Assembly (NCBI GenBank): GCA_004151065.3
Contig: NWUY0305010863.1
Coordinates: 1-23,234, forward strand
Reading direction: 5' to 3'
Source: Larix sibirica
Lineage: Eukaryota > Streptophyta > Pinopsida > Pinales > Pinaceae
DNA: 23,234 bases
Below the pieces are notes generated by a model. That model did not search any database. It had not been told where the DNA came from and saw only the letters and a program-made list of their open reading frames with translations. The position numbers and the translations under genes are program-made. Shown in pieces: positions 1-23,234 of this stretch; position 1 is the first letter of the stretch, and each line of letters starts with the position of its first letter.

Positions 1-30
1 CACCATATGAATAGTGAGTGACTCCGTCCC
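1..30 (-). repeat. Short dispersed repeat (SR23), copy at window edge
   Basis: On the minus strand this reads 'gggacggagtcactcacta' and continues to 'catatggtg', identical to 11172-11201. It overlaps the last visible codons of the coiled-coil frame, so the frame here is built from a dispersed repeat. Confidence 0.85.
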
Positions 31-467
31 TTATACCCAGGTGGCTTATAACCCGCCCAGTTATGGTATCCCTTCGACCCAGGAGGCTTCTTCGGCTTAT
101 TCCTATTATCCATCCTTTCCTTCTCCTTCCACCAGGAAGGCTCTTTAGGCTTATGGGTAGGTAGCTTAGTAGTTTTACCTAGTTTAGCCTCCAGTCTATC
201 CATCTCTTCATTCTTCCGAATCTGAATAAGCTGCTCACGCAGATCCTCAAGTTGAGCATCCTTATCCTGAATAATCTTCTTCAGCTTCTGAAACTCTTCA
301 AAAATACGAGCATTATTACGAGCATTATAATCAAGCGTAATCTTAGCCTGCTCATCTATCATCTTAGATAGACCATCAATCCGCACCTGTTGAATCTGAT
401 TCTGATCCCGCAGCTCCTGATTCTGATCCCGCAGCTCCTGATTCTGATCCCGCAGCTCCTGATTCAT
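1..467 (-). CDS. Coiled-coil protein with basic tail, partial (runs off left edge)
   Basis: No family recognised. The first ATG of this minus-strand frame is at 467 and the frame stays open for 155 codons to the window edge. Upstream it remains open to a TAG at 582-584, so the true start could differ. Residues 1-22 are a perfect heptad run (ELRDQNQ three times). Residues about 25-95 remain charged and Gln-rich with Leu/Ile spacing typical of a coiled coil (for example AQLEDLREQLIQIRK). From about residue 98 the chain becomes basic and rich in Pro, Gly, Trp and Tyr (KPKEPSWWKEKER; then KPPG and YKPPGYKG), which suggests nucleic-acid or structural binding, as in a gag-like or capsid-associated protein. 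That role is inference. The last codons, at positions 1-30, lie inside a short repeat that recurs at 11172-11203, so the original C-terminus may have been replaced. The long uninterrupted frame is the main argument that it is or was coding. Confidence 0.5.
   Translation of the reverse strand, partial: MNQELRDQNQELRDQNQELRDQNQIQQVRIDGLSKMIDEQAKITLDYNARNNARIFEEFQKLKKIIQDKDAQLEDLREQLIQIRKNEEMDRLEAKLGKTTKLPTHKPKEPSWWKEKERMDNRNKPKKPPGSKGYHNWAGYKPPGYKGRSHSLFIW
396..458 (-). repeat. Three exact 21-bp tandem units encoding heptads
   Basis: Three identical 21-bp units (396-416, 417-437, 438-458) encode the heptad ELRDQNQ at the start of the coiled coil. Perfect identity between units indicates recent slippage expansion. 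Each unit is exactly one heptad, so frame and helical register are both preserved. Confidence 0.9.
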
Positions 468-514
468 CTTAATCAAGATATCATTCTGAGAATGCTGCTT
501 CTCAGTCAGACTAT

Positions 515-610
515 TAGCAATAAGTTCTCGAATCAACCAGTTAGGGTTATTCTGTTCTGCCCACGGGGATCTACCTGTTAGCTATTAAACCAGCTGCTAT
601 CCAATAAGAT
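515..610 (-). repeat. Stray unit of the ~64-bp repeat family found at 16.9-18.4 kb
   Basis: Read on the minus strand, this stretch carries the hallmark words of the array at 16910-18440 in the same order: 'atagcagctggtt', 'aacaggtagat', 'ccccgtgggcag', then 'aactggttgattcgagaac'. It lies directly upstream of the coiled-coil frame and overlaps its in-frame upstream extension (residues NPNWLIREL). Part of that extension may therefore be repeat-derived rather than coding. Confidence 0.6.
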
Positions 611-642: not shown

Positions 643-677
643 AAGGTGCGAAGCCGCTTGTCCCTCCGGGGGCAAGG
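643..677 (+). mobile_element. AAGG-bounded GC-rich short element, subfamily 1
   Basis: This 35-bp GC-rich block starts and ends with AAGG and has the core GAAGCCGCTTGTCCCTCCGG. An identical copy lies at 1450-1484 in unrelated surroundings. Length and AAGG ends resemble the Cycas mitochondrial Bpu elements (36 bp with AAGG terminal direct repeats), but the Bpu10I site CCTGAAGC of those elements is absent. It is read as a short mobile or copy-pasted element. Confidence 0.65.
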
Positions 678-1449: not shown

Positions 1450-1484
1450 AAGGTGCGAAGCCGCTTGTCCCTCCGGGGGCAAGG
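1450..1484 (+). mobile_element. AAGG-bounded GC-rich short element, subfamily 1, second copy
   Basis: Identical over its 35 bp to the copy at 643-677, with AAGG at both ends. The flanks differ (aaca before, aact after), so the unit of duplication is the short element itself and not a larger segment. Confidence 0.7.
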
Positions 1485-8417: not shown

Positions 8418-8453
8418 CCTTGCACTAGGAAGCGCAAGCCCCTCCGGGACCTT
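8418..8453 (-). mobile_element. AAGG-bounded GC-rich short element, subfamily 2
   Basis: This 36-bp block has CCTT at both ends on the plus strand (AAGG...AAGG on the minus strand). An identical copy lies at 13682-13717 and a third, cut by the window end, starts at 23204 on the plus strand. Size and AAGG direct repeats match the Cycas Bpu elements in layout. It interrupts the GT-rich degenerate frame, so it arrived later than that sequence. Confidence 0.75.
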
Positions 8454-10010: not shown

Positions 10011-10426
10011 GCAGCCTTTCCTCTCATCATATTTGTGGAGTAGCGGGTTCCTTACTTAAAGGAGCGAAAAAAGGTGAAGGTGGTTGGTTGGGTCAAAATA
10101 CTCACTAGGGGTTCTGGCTGCTGGTGTTGGATCTTTAACGAGTAGTAGCAGTTCCAGGCCCAATAGCAGCACGGGGTACGGTTCAAAGCTTATACCTTAC
10201 CTTTCAGTGAACACGCCACCTCACCCATCGGATGGATGAGCGACTTCGTTCCTTCTATTAGTGAATTTACCATATTTATAGGCGTTCAGACTCTCTATCA
10301 TCTTGACACGCCACCTTTGCTTTGTGAATTTCCCCACATTGATCTTTATGGAGAGAGCGCTAGAGGAAAGGGCACCCTACCCCTCCACAGAGAGGATGGA
10401 TACCCGTTGACAGAGAGAGCGATTTC

Positions 10427-10967: not shown

Positions 10968-11145
10968 CCTGCCTCTCCGCTCCTCAACATCGATTGGCCT
11001 ATGCTCCTTCCCCGATGCGGGAAAGAACTAAACGTACCTTATGTAAGGACAGCCTTTCTTCCTCTCCCTAAGGTTGAGCCATCCTCCAGAAGTTTCATCT
11101 ACTGGTCAGGAGCCTATGAGCCTAGAAGAAGTAACCAAGATGTGA

Positions 11146-11203
11146 AAGGAGAGGGCCCTTACTTCTTCATAGGGACGGAGTCACTCACTATTCATATGGT
11201 GAG
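11146..11203 (+). repeat. Short dispersed repeat SR23 with extended flank
   Basis: The core 'tcactcactattcatatgg' starts at 11181. Upstream, 'gagggcccttacttctt' is shared with the inverse copy at 13298-13350, so the match extends to about 55 bp in inverted orientation. The other copies are at 1-30 (minus) and 11236-11258 (plus). Confidence 0.8.
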
Positions 11204-11210
11204 GCCCGGA

Positions 11211-11258
11211 GGGGCTCGACTGTTAAGGAGAGGGGTCACTCACTATTCATATGGTGAG
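11211..11258 (+). repeat. Composite of two short repeats
   Basis: The first part (11211-11233, beginning 'ggggctcgactgttaagg') is repeated at 12028-12050. The second part (11236-11258) is another SR23 core. Just before it, 'cccggaggggct' (11205-11216) matches the core of the subfamily 2 short element, so several short elements are nested here. Confidence 0.75.
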
Positions 11259-11261
11259 GGA

Positions 11262-11426
11262 TCTTCCTCCGCAGATCAGCTTGGAAATATGTTAACCAAA
11301 ATCCGGGGCCCACCTTCACTAGCTTACGGCATCGTATTGGTGTTGGAGATATACCATTAAGGGGGGAGTGTAAATCTTGTGATGTAATGCTTTATCTCTG
11401 TGGCCCCTGTGAAACTTAAGGGAGGG
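11262..11426 (+). pseudogene. Degraded 3' end of a Ty1/copia pol (RNase H C-terminus) with polypurine tract
   Basis: The frame from about 11262 reads SSSADQLGNMLTK, which fits the conserved copia RNase H C-terminal motif (DQLADxxTK). The following residues fit that family only after a change of frame near 11310-11320 (LRHRIGVGDI), where copia proteins have LR..LGV.D(I). A frameshift is therefore evident. Soon after come G-rich purine tracts at 11360-11368 and 11418-11426 (AAGGGAGGG), the second abutting the LTR start. No protease, integrase or reverse-transcriptase core was found upstream, so only the tail of the element is present. It is non-functional. Confidence 0.6.
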
Positions 11427-11857: not shown

Positions 11858-11881
11858 GGCACTACACTTTTTCTTTCTTAA

Positions 11882-11893
11882 ACGTAATTACGT
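11882..11893. repeat. Palindrome ACGTAATTACGT
   Basis: A perfect 12-bp palindrome just downstream of the LTR. It shares the core of the 28-bp palindrome at 15280-15307. Confidence 0.75.
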
Positions 11894-12027
11894 ATATAAA
11901 TAATGACCAGCGGATACGGCGTCCGGAGAGGGTTTTCACGTTTTGTTTAGTGGTTTGGCCCCAAAATGAAAAGTTTTGAAATGCCCTCGATCTCCCTCTT
12001 ACTGTACGATATATTTAAGGACCGGCA

Positions 12028-12050
12028 GGGGCTCGACTGTTAAGGAGAGG
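12028..12050 (+). repeat. Second copy of a 23-bp dispersed repeat
   Basis: Identical to 11211-11233 ('ggggctcgactgttaagg' then 'agagg'). Before it, 'accggcaggggct' resembles 'cccggaggggct' in front of the first copy, so the true match may be longer and imperfect. Confidence 0.8.
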
Positions 12051-13297
12051 AATAATTCCTAAGTCATTTATCCTTTAACGGGACATAAAGAGAAGATATC
12101 AGGCGCCTTTCACGAACGAGAACGTATCTGCCCTAAAAAGAAATAAGGAGATAGACAAGGTCCTTAATTTAGCCGTAAATCCATCCCTATATCTGACTAT
12201 TGTTTGTATAAAAGGGTCAAAGCTTATCGGGAAGACTTCAAGTGAGTGCTTCCCCTCAAGGAAATACTTCTTTAGGGAAGGACCGGGCCTGAAAGAAAGG
12301 TAAACCCAACCGATAGCCCAATAGGGTGGAGAGTTCAAGTAAGTTCTATATGTAATTCTTGATTCCGGAACCGGTTATGGAGCTTTCTTTTGATGGTTGT
12401 AATTACTCCGGTTATGGGTAAATAGAACGTATATAAAGCATATTTTATTAGCAAAAAAGAAAGTCTTTACAACTCAATTGACGAAAAATAGCAGTATAAT
12501 ATAAGGATATATCTAAATGAAAAGATCACACCAAATCGACTTACTTAGGGCGGAGTGCTCGACCAAAGCCCCACCCCAATAGATAGTCCACCCCACGGAG
12601 TGCTCGACCGACGTCACGTCACTCTCTTTTTCATGGTAATTAGCATAAATAAGTCAGTGCATAAAGAACACTGTTTCACTGCTATTTTTACCCACTCATT
12701 TCATCAAGTCAACGATGCGCTAAATTACCTATATAAAGAACCGGATGACCAGCAGCATTGTCGATCTATAGCCCTTCGAAAGTCGATCAAGAACTGGGAA
12801 AGAGAGAGATAGCTCACTCACCTCACTTTGTTTGTGTCGTAATAGAAAGAAAGTTCACGTTTACCCGAAGAAAGAAAGCGGGTCGTGAATTTCATAACGA
12901 TGGATGCGTGTTGGCTCGACTTCTTGAGTGAGTGCTTCTGATGGAAAAGACTCGCCATGCCATAAATAATGAATAAAGAAAGGGTGATTCTCTCTGTATA
13001 TAATTCTACCTACATCAGCAAGGGAGTGAAAAGCGTCACACCCCTTATAAGGGGAGGATTTCATACCAAAGATCGCATGGATACCGCTATATAGGAGAAC
13101 GCACTAGATCGGAGAGGAACTGGAAATTGGCTTCGGATCGACTTTCAAATGGTTATGGCCCACCTATGTGAATGGCGCACATGGACTTTCTTTTTAGTTC
13201 ATTCATGAAAACGTTTCCTAAATAAAGAAAGAAGTGAATATCACATTCAATGGAGTGCGAAGCGAGAATAAGCCCCGCTAATTACACTGAAAGGACC
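12051..13297. other. No gene recognised
   Basis: A minus-strand frame of 79 codons without an ATG start (12338-12099) and a plus-strand frame (12555-12812) match nothing I know. Small repeats occur: 'cggagtgctcgacc' at 12551-12564 and 12596-12609. The word 'acgtatataaag' is near 12427. 'gagtgcgaagcgag' near 13255 may be a decayed relic of the GC-rich short element. Confidence 0.45.
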
Positions 13298-13350
13298 CTC
13301 ACCATATGAATAGTGAGTGACCCCTAAGAAGTAAGGGCCCTGCTCTCTCT
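13298..13350 (-). repeat. Short dispersed repeat SR23, inverted copy
   Basis: On the minus strand this reads 'gggcccttacttctt' followed closely by 'tcactcactattcatatgg', matching 11150-11203 apart from a short insertion there (catagggacgg against agggg). It is inverted relative to 11.15 kb and therefore a potential recombination pair. Confidence 0.8.
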
Positions 13351-13357
13351 TTGGTCG

Positions 13358-13405
13358 AGCAAGCGGCTTCGCACCTTGTCCGATGCGGACAAGCGACTTC
13401 GTACC
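13358..13405 (-). mobile_element. Truncated subfamily 1 short element with adjoining hairpin
   Basis: 13360-13377 is the reverse complement of the first 18 bp of the subfamily 1 element (AAGGTGCGAAGCCGCTTG). It is followed by a perfect 8-bp hairpin with loop ATG (13375-13382 with 13386-13393, CTTGTCCG/CGGACAAG) and then by 'acaagcgacttcgtacc', a diverged second copy of the same half. The arrangement suggests nested or partial copies. Confidence 0.6.
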
Positions 13406-14640
13406 AATATTCATTAATAAAAAAATTCATTTTAGTATCCCCGTGGAATATTGCCTTGGCCTTATAAAATAAGATATTTGAATAGGTGAAACCTGCGAAT
13501 TAGAATGTGTTTTGGATTTGTTCCAACAAGACTTAGTGCCTTTTCCAAACCTGGTGGGTGGTGCTTTAGATGTTATATAAGCGTATCTATTCAATTGCGG
13601 ATCTCTTCAATTAAGGTTCCCTTATAGTTGCGGTAAATATTATTACATCTGGATAATCTCCATTTTCTTTTTTACCTCATTCCTTGCACTAGGAAGCGCA
13701 AGCCCCTCCGGGACCTTATCGGGAATAACTCTATCTGTTGGCTATCGTTCGCTCGGTGGACCACCCCTTTTGTAGATGGCAGTTGTCCTCCGGACCACCC
13801 CGCGTAGATGTGGGCTTTGTCAATATCTCTTGGCTCTATGGATTGAATCAGTCCCATATGGATTTCACGGGATAAGGATAAAGGCGCTAGCAATCAAGCA
13901 TCCGGCTTATCTACCCAACAAGGATCACCTCTTAAAATGGACAAGTTCAATTATATATGCGAGTCTCCCAGCATAAGCCATTCACTGAAACGATTAACTA
14001 AAGCCGTTCCGTGTCAACCACTGCTCCCTACGTAAACTGAATGAAATTGCATTCTTATAAAGAATGGAGAAGGATAAAGAATAGTAGTAATCCCCCTGCT
14101 TATTCGCTTATGCTCAGCTATGTAAGGTTCCCTATTTATATAAAATAATAAGGGAATGAATATATCCCCATTTTCTTATTTGCTGACGCTCTGGGGCATA
14201 GATAGCAGCTTCGTTTGCGCTCTGCTTTATAAGTGCCTCTCCATTTCTAATAATCAAAAATATGGAGTACACAGGATATGGATTGAACGTTTATTGTGTG
14301 ATGTGCACCTATATAGATGCATGGGGATTTCTAGAAGATATATGAGGTTTTCTATTATTTGATAGAAAGAGAGTGAAAGCCGAAAGCCTTACGGGTTGTC
14401 TACATCCAGGACTTTGAGTTCAAGCCATAAGAAGGTAAACTAACTAGCCATAGGGACTTCTGGTACTAGCACTTTAGACACTTGCCTTGCTTAGTCACAT
14501 GTACTAAGTTCCATGGAGCAAGGCCTCTTAGAGACTGCCTTAAAGTCCATACAGTAATTGGTAACGTGGATTCGTGTTTCCTATCGTTAAACCCTGGCTC
14601 CTTACTCCCAAGGTGCAAGTAGTATATAAAGCACTCAACT
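13406..14640. other. No gene recognised
   Basis: Apart from the short element at 13682-13717 nothing is assignable. Fragments near 13490-13620 and 13776-13976 give protein-like stretches (MCFGFVPTRLSAFSKPGG; GIRIKALAIKHPAYLPNKDH), but both are short, interrupted and unrecognised. An ORF at 14156-14362 on the plus strand starts with a true ATG (14156-14158), runs 68 codons and is hydrophobic in parts. I have no match for it. Confidence 0.4.
13682..13717 (-). mobile_element. AAGG-bounded GC-rich short element, subfamily 2
   Basis: Identical over 36 bp to 8418-8453, with CCTT at both ends on the plus strand. The flanks (ttacctcatt before, atcgggaat after) are unrelated to the other copies, so the element moved alone. 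Confidence 0.75.
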
Positions 14641-14829: not shown

Positions 14830-15279
14830 ACCTCCCGGTACGGATCTCCTATTGGCTGACTGGCATGGAGTACAAGCCATAGAGTCAAAGCCATTGAGTC
14901 CCAGCATTGACTCTTGAGTACCGGCATTGACTCCTGGGATCAACTCCTGGTCCTGTAATTATCTACCGGCTATCATCAATGACAACCATTATAAGCTATG
15001 ACTTCTGACTATTGACCGGCTGGCTGTGACCACTCTCGGGAATGACCTGAAGGTAAGGACTATTATGATTGGCAGCACAAAAAGTTGAGATCCCGACAAT
15101 TTGGTGTTGAAGTTCCGAAAAAGCCCAACTTTCTCACGTGTTTTCATTGGCGGAAAATGGCATCTGAGACCGGTTCAATGATTGACCAACAGGGCCAATC
15201 CGACTCGCCGTAGGAAGACTTTGGGCGGCGTGTTCGCTAAGGCACTTGACACCCCTCGACTGGTCGGCGAGTGAACCCT

Positions 15280-15316
15280 TATTATATACGTAATTACGTA
15301 TATAATATATATTATA
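15280..15316. repeat. 28-bp perfect palindrome plus adjoining AT palindrome
   Basis: 15280-15307 is perfectly self-complementary around AATT at 15292-15295, with core TACGTAATTACGTA. It overlaps a second 16-bp palindrome (15301-15316, TATAATATATATTATA) and is followed by 'attacgtttataat', a further relative. The region could extrude a cruciform or form a long hairpin in RNA. Cores of this motif also occur at 8085-8096 and 11882-11893. Confidence 0.9.
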
Positions 15317-16560: not shown

Positions 16561-16910
16561 TTAACTCAATCGATATCTCGTAAGGTGACAACTTGAACTC
16601 CCTCTCCTCGTATGGCGTCGACTTGGGGAACTCAATCTCTCCTGCTCCCGTTCCAAGGCACCATGGGGAATATATAAATAAATATCGTCTGTTGATAACA
16701 TGGCTCAATCAATATGCTCATATGGAAACAACATGGCTCTCAATGTCCTCTGGTGGGAACATGGGGGGACTTCCCTCTCTCGGGTATCCTGTGATGGGGG
16801 CCTTCTCTCTCGCGTATGATGGAAACTAGGGAGAACTCAATCACTATCTCGTCTCGTGGCATATGGGGGACCTCACTCACTCACTCTCTCTCAACTGGGT
16901 GTGATGAGGC
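16561..16910 (+). repeat. Diverged minisatellite ('aactcaatc..atctcgt..ggcatatggggga')
   Basis: Imperfect units of roughly 30-60 bp recur: 'aactcaatcgatatctcgt', 'aactcaatctctcctg', 'gctcaatcaatatgctcatatgg', 'aacatggggggactt' and 'aactcaatcactatctcgtc'. It abuts the 64-bp array that follows. Confidence 0.55.
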
Positions 16911-18440
16911 CAGGTTGATTCTAGAACTAACCACGGGCAGTAGGTAACTGAGATTCTTTGGGCAGGTTGATGAGATAACAGAGTCCATTGGGGCAGGTGG
17001 ATGATAGAACTGCAGCAGGTTCCGCTTAGCATTTGGGATAAGCTAGCTATTGGGCCCAGCTGATTGACTATAGCCCAGGTTGAATAGAAACCCGTGGTAG
17101 GCTCATAGTTGAATTGTACCAGCTGCTTGAAGAGAGCCCAGGTTGACTAGATATCCGTGAGCAGTAGGTCCATAGTTGAATTGTAAACAGCTGAGTGAAA
17201 TGAGAACAGGTCGAACGTATACCCGTGAGCAGAAGCAAGCTAATTGGGTAACAGCTGTTTGTGATGGGAACAGATTGAATAGCTCCCCGTGGGCAGAAAA
17301 TAGCTTATTGGGTAACTGGTAGATTCGATAGCAGGTAGAATAGATACCCGTGAGCGTTAGGTAAAATAGCTTATTGAATAGCAGCTGGTTGATTCAATAC
17401 CTGCAGCAGACTCCACTGAGCTGTTGGCGTAAGAATTCCATTGGTCCCAGCTGGTAGTGACTCAAACAGAATAGCTACCCGCGAGCAGTATGTAACATAG
17501 TTGAATTGTGCAGGTGGATGAGAGACCAGAGCTTTTTGGGTAGCAGCTAGACCATGTTGACTATAGTCCCGTGGTAAGACCTTAGTTTTTTTGGTAACCA
17601 ACTGTTTGTGATTCGAACAGGTTGAATAGCTTCCCGTGGGCAGTAGGTAACTTATAATATTTGGTAACCGGTGGATTCGAGAACTGAGGCCTGTTGGTCC
17701 TGGGCGTGAAGAGAGAACAACTGGATGTGTGTGGCTGTAAGGTGCGGCATGAACCTCAACTGGGTGAATCGAGACCAGGGGCTATTAGAAAACCAACCGT
17801 GGGCAGTAAGTTACATAGCTAAAATGTGAACTGGTTTATTATATATAGATATTATTTGGGACCAGCTTTTTTATTAGAGACCGGGTTTACTAGAGCCCCG
17901 TGGGAAGCCCATAGTAGAATGGGGAACCATCTGAATGATATAGCAGGTTTAATATAGAACCATGCTCAGTAGGTACCATAGCAGATGTTGTAACTTCGGG
18001 CAGTATTTCACTGTGGTATTCTAGAGAACATAGTTATGCTGGGACTGGGTGTGATTATTCCAGGTTGATGAGATAACAAACCATGGGCAGTAGGTAACAT
18101 AGTTTATTTGCTCCATTTGATTAGAGAACAGAGTCCATTTGTGCAGGTTGATTATATGCAGCAGGTATAACAGAGCATTTGGGATAAGATGTCTCTTGGG
18201 ACCCGCTGTTTGCGAACTGTTTTAATAGAGACCCGTGTGGTAAGCCCAGAGTCTAATTGGGACCAGCTGTTTGAATAGAGCCCAGGTCTAAAAGATACCC
18301 GTGAGCAGCCCATAGCTTCTTCGGTAAAAGCAGGTTGTTATGGGAACAGGTTTAATATCTACCCGTGGGCAGTAGGTAAAATAGCAGATGGTGAAACTTT
18401 GGTAAGTCGTGAACAGGTTTATTCGATAACTGAGTCCATT
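16911..18440 (+). repeat. Diverged tandem array, unit ~64 bp, with a higher-order duplication
   Basis: The phrase 'cccgtg(a/g)gcagtaggtaa' or a near form recurs at about 17091, 17154, 17222, 17286, 17347, 17478, 17568, 17633, 18232, 18300 and 18361. Spacing is close to 61-68 bp or multiples of it in most cases. Between these come 'catagcttattgggtaac', 'cagctg.ttga' and 'caggttgaatag'. A larger block is itself repeated: 'acagagtccatt..gcaggt' to 'gcatttgggataag' at about 16977-17042 recurs at about 18128-18190. Dense stops argue against coding. Confidence 0.75.
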
Positions 18441-18653: not shown

Positions 18654-19690
18654 ATCCCTCTGGGCCTCACCCTCCTAACCTCGGATGAGTCCCTTTGGGC
18701 CTTGGGGAGGTTCTTGCTAATTTCACTCCTCGATCTCCTATGGAGACGTGTCACTTTCATAGTGCAATCATGGATCAAAAACACCTTCCTTATAAAATGA
18801 ATTAGGAAAGTAAGGAGTCTCAACGGGGTTGTGTCCATGCATTCTTGGTACTCCATGCTGCCAGTACTCATTTCAGCAGGTGGTTAATACACTACGTCAG
18901 TGTTACATACCAAGGTTCAATGCCCCATCCATTCACTTAATGCCATGAGTAGATCACTTTATGCCAGATTTCTATTTCTTCTTGTCCATTTGGGAACCAA
19001 TTTCATAAGATAGTGTCTGCTCTCATTGACATGGACTAAGGAGGCACGGAACTAATCCCTAATGATTATTGCCAGGAGGTGTTGATTCAATATATGCTGG
19101 TACTTCGCTAGTCAATTCCTATGGGTAGCTCTAATCCGCTAAATAAGGCAGGCTATTCCACTAATTCAATGGTAGAGGCTTCTAATCCTACTACAGTGAT
19201 CCAATGGGGAGGAGGAATCAGCAGCAAAAGAATCAATGGGAATAATCCAATGGGAGGAGACTCCTATATAAAATAAATTCGCTGATAGTAAGTGCCCAAG
19301 AGGTCTTTGCTCACTGTTAAGCTGATACCAGCGCCAGTCTCATCTGGAGCCATATGTTCACAGGAGGTGGGTTGTTGCTGCTTTTATTTTACCCTGCCCA
19401 GGAGGTTTTATTTGTCTATATATTCTATTGCATATCTACGCTTAACTTATCCATTTGAATAGGTCTCCTTAGGCACCCCACCTACCCATTTCCTATTGTT
19501 GTATCAATCAATAGGTCTGCTCCATTGTAACAAGAAATCAATAATTGATATACGAGATCGCATCTCTACGTCGACCTTGTCCATAAAGAAATAGGAGAAC
19601 TACTGGGAGTGTAAGTTCCTACGAAGGAAGCTTGGCGTTAGAGAGAGCTGGTTGAATACGAAGGCTGGTCCAGTTAGGCGAGAAGAGAAC
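18654..19690. other. No gene recognised; small internal repeats
   Basis: 'tccct(c/t)tgggcct' occurs twice at 18656-18705. 'tccaatggga(g)gagg' words recur at about 19200-19260. Nothing else is assignable. Confidence 0.45.
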
Positions 19691-23203: not shown

Positions 23204-23234
23204 AAGGTCCCGGAGGGGCTTGCGCTTCCTAGTG
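23204..23234 (+). mobile_element. AAGG-bounded GC-rich short element, subfamily 2, cut by window end
   Basis: The first 31 bp match the minus strand of 8418-8453 and 13682-13717 exactly, beginning AAGGTCCCGGAGGGG. The window ends before the expected closing AAGG. Confidence 0.75.

Follow-up and report, generated by a model that had tools for sequence, protein, structure and literature searches.

Bpu elements are scattered through gymnosperm mitochondrial DNA (mtDNA) as GC-rich sequences of about 36 bp that start and end with AAGG, and an expansion of them has been described for Cycas and Ginkgo alone (PMC8297867, PMC6971862). Similar mitochondrial elements have been reported in more distant hosts. 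The double-hairpin elements of Allomyces carry two hairpins per unit and are dispersed in mtDNA with no clear target duplication (PMC2800124, PMC4478555). The GC clusters of yeast (GC42) are short GC-rich palindromes with near-identical dispersed copies, among which merging and shuffling of units occur (PMC4478555). Repetitive hairpin elements of sponges and repeats in rice mtDNA, cited alongside, likewise form mitochondrial hairpin families with tandem hairpins (PMC2800124). We analyzed a 23,234-nucleotide contig from Larix sibirica (NWUY0305010863.1, contig C19683 in our numbering, hereafter the window), in which AAGG-bounded GC-rich units of 35-36 bp had been noticed from the letters alone and taken for possible relatives of Bpu (the original prediction). 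These units look like an apparently new offshoot of the very small mobile elements described in the mitochondria of cycads, yeast, and fungi. Our explanation, including the way in which they spread, is that GC-rich double-hairpin elements, together one superfamily, have become numerous in the mitochondrial genome of this Pinaceae conifer, to which we assign a probability of about 0.6.

We scanned the assembly to which the window belongs (618,328,334 bases in 19,862 contigs) for the families F1 (type copy 8418-8453) and F4 (type copy 643-677), whereas the families F3, F2, and X are known from the window and from stretches fetched from the same assembly (denoted L). With up to three mismatches, F1 occurs at 41 places (30 exact) and F4 at 20 (10 exact), compared with 0 matches to the reversed patterns in the whole 618-Mb assembly. 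The copies are not a product of chance, and the units have multiplied. Removal of the known contig overlaps (C18017:14767, which equals window 13682; two places in C19640, equal to two in C18575; and one in C17765, equal to one in C19690) leaves about 37 distinct F1 places. The five near-complete copies and the broken one of the original prediction are all present in the window, dispersed and identical within each subfamily (643-677 equals 1450-1484, and 8418-8453 equals 13682-13717), although the window holds more units than had been counted. The predicted unrelatedness of the flanks is borne out by eye for the listed copies and in the best 70 of 739 BLAST pairs, and copies are not confined to larger duplications. 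It fails for overlapping contigs (C18017/window, C19640/C18575, C17765/C19690) and for composites recurring as blocks, e.g., a 70-bp F1-F2' composite in two places. A 75-bp composite of an F4 left half, a purine-rich spacer, and an F1 unit is found at L009:3751-3825 and L047:547-621 in different flanks, and composites thus also spread or recombine as blocks.

The units have a common plan of about 35 bp, consisting of (A)AGG, a mini-hairpin of 2-3 bp, and a second hairpin (about 8 bp) with a 3' arm terminating in CAAG+G or TGAG+G. The turn of the mini-hairpin is mostly C(GNA)G or C(GNNA)G, with the exceptions of TTTA in some F2 units and AAA in unit Z. F1 is composed as AAGG-T-CCC(GGA)GGG-G-CTTGCGCT(TCCT)AGTGCAAG-G, F4 as AAGG-T-GC(GAA)GC-CG-CTTGTCCC(TCCG)GGGGCAAG-G, and the sense strand of F3 as AGG-GAC(GGA)GTC-A-CTCACTAT(TCAT)ATGGTGAG-G. 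F3, which was first noticed as a dispersed repeat and later picked up weakly by the covariance model described below, has the same build as F1 and F4. F5 and X follow the same plan, and F2 combines a GNNA or TTTA mini-hairpin with a different right part. Two GC-rich hairpins in series, the trait of mitochondrial double-hairpin elements, are present in each unit of this plan. For DNA mini-hairpins of the GNA/GNNA kind that have two G-C pairs, extraordinary stability and resistance to nucleases have been reported, with d(GCGAAGC) melting at 78 °C (PMC4686876), and F4 contains exactly GCGAAGC.

The stems vary on both sides among relatives. The F4 stem CTTGTCCC/GGGGCAAG appears as CTTGTCCG/CGGACAAG in window 13374-13407, as CTTGTCCT/AGGGCAAG in L051, and as CTCA.../...TGAG in window 10219-10254, and an F4 relative at L015:5078-5114 has an extra base on each side of the stem. 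In the second hairpin (CTTG...CAAG), the 3' arm is formed by the right-hand AAGG. A CTCA 5' arm brings a TGAGG end while the left AAGG is kept, and the right end varies with the stem in window 10219-10254 and in F3. Since the right end tracks the stem while the left AAGG stays, the right AAGG is a stem arm and not a free target-site copy or plain target duplication. The terminal direct repeats of the original prediction are accordingly present as letters at both ends of F1 (36 bp) and F4 (35 bp), in agreement with the described length and ends of Bpu, but their right copy belongs to the hairpin.

We built a covariance model (R1) from 19 hand-picked units, including the one at 10219-10254. A search with this model through 186,892 bases, taken from 19 of 21 sources, yielded 64 matches at E≤1; L014 and L026 were excluded as largely redundant, and L025 still overlaps the window. 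On 14 newly fetched stretches of 1.2-1.3 kb, it gave 16 matches at E≤0.1, 14 of which were the very units that had guided the choice of the stretches. In alignment A2, which comprises 28 distinct rows fitted to the structure and includes weak matches (E up to 0.72), 90.6% of the paired cells are complementary compared with 73.8% after shuffling, double-sided changes occur in 40 cells compared with 12.1, and the covariation amounts to 0.423 compared with 0.170. None of 500 shuffles reached any of these values, and structures slid along the alignment scored at most 0.140. Alignment A1, made by MAFFT and unfitted to the structure, gave 84.3% paired cells (72.0% shuffled) and a covariation of 0.354 (0.169 shuffled; 0 of 500; slid structures at most 0.208). 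The paired positions covary, and the structure is under constraint.

A strict structural descriptor (AGG, a C(GNA)G or C(GNNA)G mini-hairpin, a stem of at least 7, G) had 54 matches, 21 of them distinct, in 183,778 non-redundant bases, as opposed to 3 in ten shuffled sets together; the shuffles used here, for the wider descriptor, and for the single hairpins preserve dinucleotides only approximately, as the walk can stop early. A wider descriptor had 70 matches (37 distinct) against a shuffled mean of 11.75. The C(G..A)G turn was counted in 10 of the 37 distinct matches and in 5 of 235 shuffled ones, a count that understates F1 and F4, which the script folds differently. Taken by themselves, second-type hairpins stay close to the background (153 matches, 102 distinct, vs. 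72-89 in shuffles), which makes the combination of two hairpins the special part. Taken together, we consider the double-hairpin family and its structure highly likely.

Units are also joined to one another. Among 68 units of F1, F2, F4, F5, and X, we found nine junctions with a shared AAGG, all nine on the same strand, and F2 is the downstream partner in all six junctions that involve it. For instance, the F1 copy at C18017:5245-5280 is followed by an X-type unit with AAGG common to both. F2-type units chain with one another (L025:1-200), and one sits between two F3 units in the three-unit chain at window 11171-11260 (+). Mosaics of halves occur as well: L013:50-85 combines a CCC(GGTA)GGG left half with an F3 right half, and L025:5211-5248 an AC(GTA)GT left half with the right half of X. 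The base composition 3' of F1 is biased. The first base is A in 24 of 31 copies and the first two are AA in 19 of 31, whereas for the 2374 AAGG sites as a whole the corresponding shares are 29% and 12% (binomial 4e-8 and 1e-10, copies taken as independent). This sample comes from 39 copies, 37 with a right flank, after exclusion of six that run into another unit.

One locus could be compared in two forms. Along 12,591 of its bases, the window is overlapped by contig C18017, and the two differ at four places only. At 11124-11265, the window has a chain of F3 and F2-type units and C18017 has other hairpin pieces. Single bases differ at 13379 and 18661, both inside units, and at 15272-15278 five changed bases adjoin a TA-rich palindrome. 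The listed units account for 385 bases, or 3%, of the overlap, which suggests turnover at hairpin units.

We infer that the units are mobile, which is quite probable even though no movement has been observed. As for the route, we tentatively favor one at the DNA level guided by AAGG microhomology. The units would spread as passive copies handled by the replication and repair of host DNA. Single-stranded element DNA would fold into hairpins of the nuclease-resisting kind. At a break or a stalled fork that offers AAGG/CCTT, with a preference for sites that continue with AA, the AAGG end of the element would anneal and prime synthesis through this microhomology, and one unit would be inserted. 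Such a route would account for single units bounded by AAGG, for chains that run on one strand from the AAGG of units already in place, and for mosaics that combine a left half with a right half. A bolder and rather improbable version would make the units protein-free mobile cassettes of single-stranded DNA, in which a nuclease-resistant GNA/GNNA mini-hairpin and an 8-bp hairpin travel together, AAGG docks into AAGG sites and into the unit's own earlier copies to give same-strand chains, and halves are swapped. The Bpu elements of Cycas and Ginkgo would then be a one-stem version.

Movement through RNA is less likely but survives best among the other explanations. The units would be transcribed and the folded RNA reverse transcribed by a mitochondrial reverse-transcriptase activity and inserted, as has been suggested for the Allomyces elements because they lack flanking duplications (PMC2800124). 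The same fold is stable as RNA (F1 -15.1 and F4 -14.9 kcal/mol), and the genome contains a matR-type maturase frame, 85% identical to that of Ginkgo and 74% to that of Gnetum, with other database records reaching 93-95%. However, the left AAGG is unpaired yet conserved, for which RNA folding alone has no need. Triloops of the GGA and GAA kind are not known for any special stability in RNA. In DNA, their stability has been noted (PMC4686876).

Kinship with Bpu, as a different or ancestral branch, was the central suggestion of the original prediction and appears quite improbable on the present comparisons. The Bpu consensus as printed (PMC8297867) folds into AAGG, a short spacer, and a stem CCTTTCCT/AGGGAAGG enclosing GC(GTA)GC. 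The conifer units thus share with Bpu the length class, the AAGG start, the right AAGG placed in a stem arm, and a C(GNA)G turn, which in Bpu is C(GTA)G. The hairpins, however, stand in series in the conifer units and are nested in Bpu, and the conifer units form chains and comprise several families in one genome. Alignments of F1 with the Cycas and Ginkgo consensus were equaled by 621 and 623 of 1000 core shuffles, and those of F4 by 442 and 325. The Bpu consensus had no match in the genome at up to three mismatches. The diagnostic Bpu10I site (CCTGAGC at positions 15-21 of the printed Cycas consensus) is absent from F1 and F4 by reading, as had been predicted. We therefore rejected the membership of F1 and F4 in Bpu: the similarity is one of build. 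F3 and F2 likewise show no similarity beyond the ends, and for F5 and X, which between 85 and 574 of 1000 shuffles equaled, it is borderline at best. What stands of the original prediction is a GC-rich family in plant mtDNA that is small, dispersed, and probably mobile, which is supported here by the further AAGG-bounded copies across the genome; the sequence does not support its descent from Bpu.

The best candidate for a real link is found elsewhere. At L024:8921-8986 (-) in contig C18217, two chained AAGG units of 34-36 bp start with AAGGTTAT like Bpu and have one clear hairpin each, the second reading CTTAGTGC GTTA GCGCTAAG. Alignment of the second unit with Bpu was equaled by 9 (Cycas) and 3 (Ginkgo) of 1000 shuffles, which is borderline, and that of unit Y of the window by 31 and 12; both are the best of 18 such comparisons. 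Judged by these scores, the L024 chain may be the closest to Bpu seen in this genome, followed by unit Y. As a separate observation, PMC8297867 gives CCTGAAGC as the Bpu10I site at positions 15-21, where its consensus reads CCTGAGC, and the Ginkgo consensus given there (CCCGAGC) would not contain a Bpu10I site.

The remaining systems differ from the conifer units as well. The Allomyces elements, compared by description only, belong to another lineage, whereas the AAGG start, the shared-AAGG chains, and the GNA/GNNA first turn are features of the conifer units (PMC2800124, PMC4478555). Yeast GC clusters have AG or ACT flanking direct repeats, and their turnover is known from population data (PMC4478555). 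The sponge and rice repeats are from other hosts, and the excerpt of PMC2800124 mentions no AAGG rule for them.

The mitochondrial setting is clearest in contig C17742 (121,853 bp), where a group II intron domain, an X unit, an F4 copy, and an atp4 open frame (PF05405, E 5.8e-42) lie within 1.3 kb. Counted from the F4 copy, the start of the frame is 45 bases downstream and that of its Pfam match about 110 bases downstream. The GC content of the window (44%) and of the fetched set (44.5%) exceeds that of plastid stretches (35-39%), and the listed F1 and F4 places are on contigs numbered C17623 to C19835. For the other element contigs, in which few genes were recognizable where read, a mitochondrial origin is probable from the shared elements, the composition, and the link through C17742. 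In the same assembly, accD from the plastid contig is 90% identical to that of Pinus and 82% to that of Tsuga, metagenome records reaching 92-94%, and on this and the maturase comparison the plant was placed in the Pinaceae; rbcL proved too conserved for placement. One might also regard the units as static structural signals, such as hairpins for processing mitochondrial transcripts, multiplied by ordinary segmental duplication, given that inverted repeats are named as processing signals in plant mitochondrial mRNAs (a reference title in PMC2800124) and that this F4 copy is just upstream of atp4. This is very unlikely, because recognizable genes are few (atp4, the intron domain, a tRNA-like match) and units many in the stretches read, flanks are mostly unrelated, and neither chains nor mosaics are expected of processing signals. 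The tRNA-like Rfam match, at L021:9216-9284 (-) with 36.4 bits, received no ARAGORN call. An artefact of misassembly or chance hairpins is hardly credible, for although the assembly is a draft with some contigs overlapping or ending at units and single second-type hairpins are near background, dozens of exact copies lie within contigs in distinct flanks, the control patterns have no match, and the strict descriptor exceeds its shuffled sets (54 vs. 0.3 per set).

Several results weigh against our explanation. Pairs with double changes in A2 number six, which 66 of 500 shuffles equaled, and the further pair types in A1 (10 vs. 10.3 in shuffles) show no excess. One pair is broken (G-G) in F1v and F1z. 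The excess with the strict descriptor is partly circular for F1, F4, and F3, because the descriptor was written once those families were known. Common descent of the families is supported by their sequences only in part: alignments of F1 were equaled by 0 (X), 2 (F5), and 12 (F4) of 1000 shuffles, and those of F3 by 41 (F1), 122 (F4), and 698 (X), so that the sequences support no kinship of F3. The differences between the window and C18017 could be assembly faults at repeats, which have the same appearance. Chains could be old composites copied as blocks, because F1-F2 recurs. The open reading frame (ORF) listing and ten Pfam scans, to which the search was confined, revealed no transposase or partner. 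Finally, we found no orthologous empty site: joined flanks from 97 pairs, which would also reveal a direct repeat at the target as in yeast GC clusters, gave 10 junction matches, compared with 11 from mispaired flanks.

In that comparison, a seemingly filled and empty pair, X-F1-F2 (L028) and X-F2 (L009), with a single AAGG and identical 22-base flanks, was rejected. The pair is not orthologous, because both flanks are units, the outer flanks differ, and the mispaired control is equal; with that control, it shows merely the free combination of units.

Database searches brought no identification. The exact F1 and F4 cores had no match in a collection of viral contigs, and the exact F1 core had none in a collection of genome contigs; records of this genome are possibly excluded from these scans. 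Rfam gave no match in the window, tRNA scans none in the window or in 24 loci, and Pfam on ten ORFs a single match to YabA under its cut-off, leaving the units unexplained. In a literature search of open-licence papers, none contained the F1 and F4 letters, and none among those listed dealt with a comparable conifer family. That a conifer has such a family, clearly structured and with several subfamilies and chain junctions, suggests that these elements extend beyond Cycas and Ginkgo and that they have been missed where the Bpu sequence served as the query. With the covariance model and the AAGG-chain rule, the long-standing question of how 36-bp elements move in organelles becomes testable by genome comparison.

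Table 1. Double-hairpin units and related sequences in the window.
Feature	Position	Strand	Description
F3 unit, cut by window start	1..32	-	model match E 0.7
F4 unit, 35 bp, exact	643..677	+	AAGG-T-GCGAAGC mini-hairpin-CG-CTTGTCCC/GGGGCAAG hairpin-G; model match 48.8 bits
F4 unit, 35 bp, identical to 643-677	1450..1484	+	exact copy
F1 unit, 36 bp	8418..8453	-	AAGG-T-CCCGGAGGG mini-hairpin-G-CTTGCGCT/AGTGCAAG hairpin-G
Diverged F4-type unit	10219..10254	-	compensated stem CTCA...TGAG, right end TGAGG; model match E 6.3e-6
Unit Y, AAGG...AAGG, 35 bp	11006..11040	-	AC(GTTTA)GT turn; CTTTCCCG/CGGGGAAG stem; wide structure descriptor
F3 unit	11171..11204	+	AGG-GAC(GGA)GTC-A-CTCACTAT/ATGGTGAG-G
Short F2-type unit CCCGGAGGGGCTCGACTGTTAAGG	11201..11228	+	between two F3 units; AGG and AAGG in common with neighbors
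F3-type unit, different left half	11225..11259	+	third in chain; wide descriptor
F2-type unit AAGGACCGGCAGGGGCTCGACTGTTAAGG	12017..12045	+	repeat listing
F3-family copy, right-hand hairpin	13296..13324	-	repeat listing
F4 left half, then CTCGACC	13353..13377	-	covariance model extends to 13338 via longer loop
Diverged F4-type unit	13374..13407	-	AC(GAA)GT mini-hairpin; CTTGTCCG/CGGACAAG stem; model match weak, E 0.72
F1 unit, 36 bp, identical to 8418-8453	13682..13717	-	exact copy
Candidate unit	18665..18703	-	wide descriptor, about 12 matches per shuffled set; may be chance
F1 unit, first 31 of 36 bases	23204..23234	+	cut by window end; whole at C18017:5245-5280

The broken copy at 13360-13377 of the original prediction is the left half of the unit at 13353-13377 (Table 1). 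The adjoining full unit at 13374-13407, which has TTGG as its left end and AAGG in common with its neighbor, had been overlooked.

The window contains other repeats and frames. A TA-rich palindromic repeat (TACGTAATTACGTATATAATA and relatives) occurs at 15280-15307, at 11879-11899, and at other places, and 8-9 times in the fetched set; it is possibly a second class of small repeat. Degenerate repeats about 23-133 bp long, grouped into families D1-D9, form an array over 16894-18424. The open frame that gave the YabA match, the only one in Pfam, encodes 193 residues at 3-581 (-) and contains the seven-residue motif QELRDQN three times in tandem.
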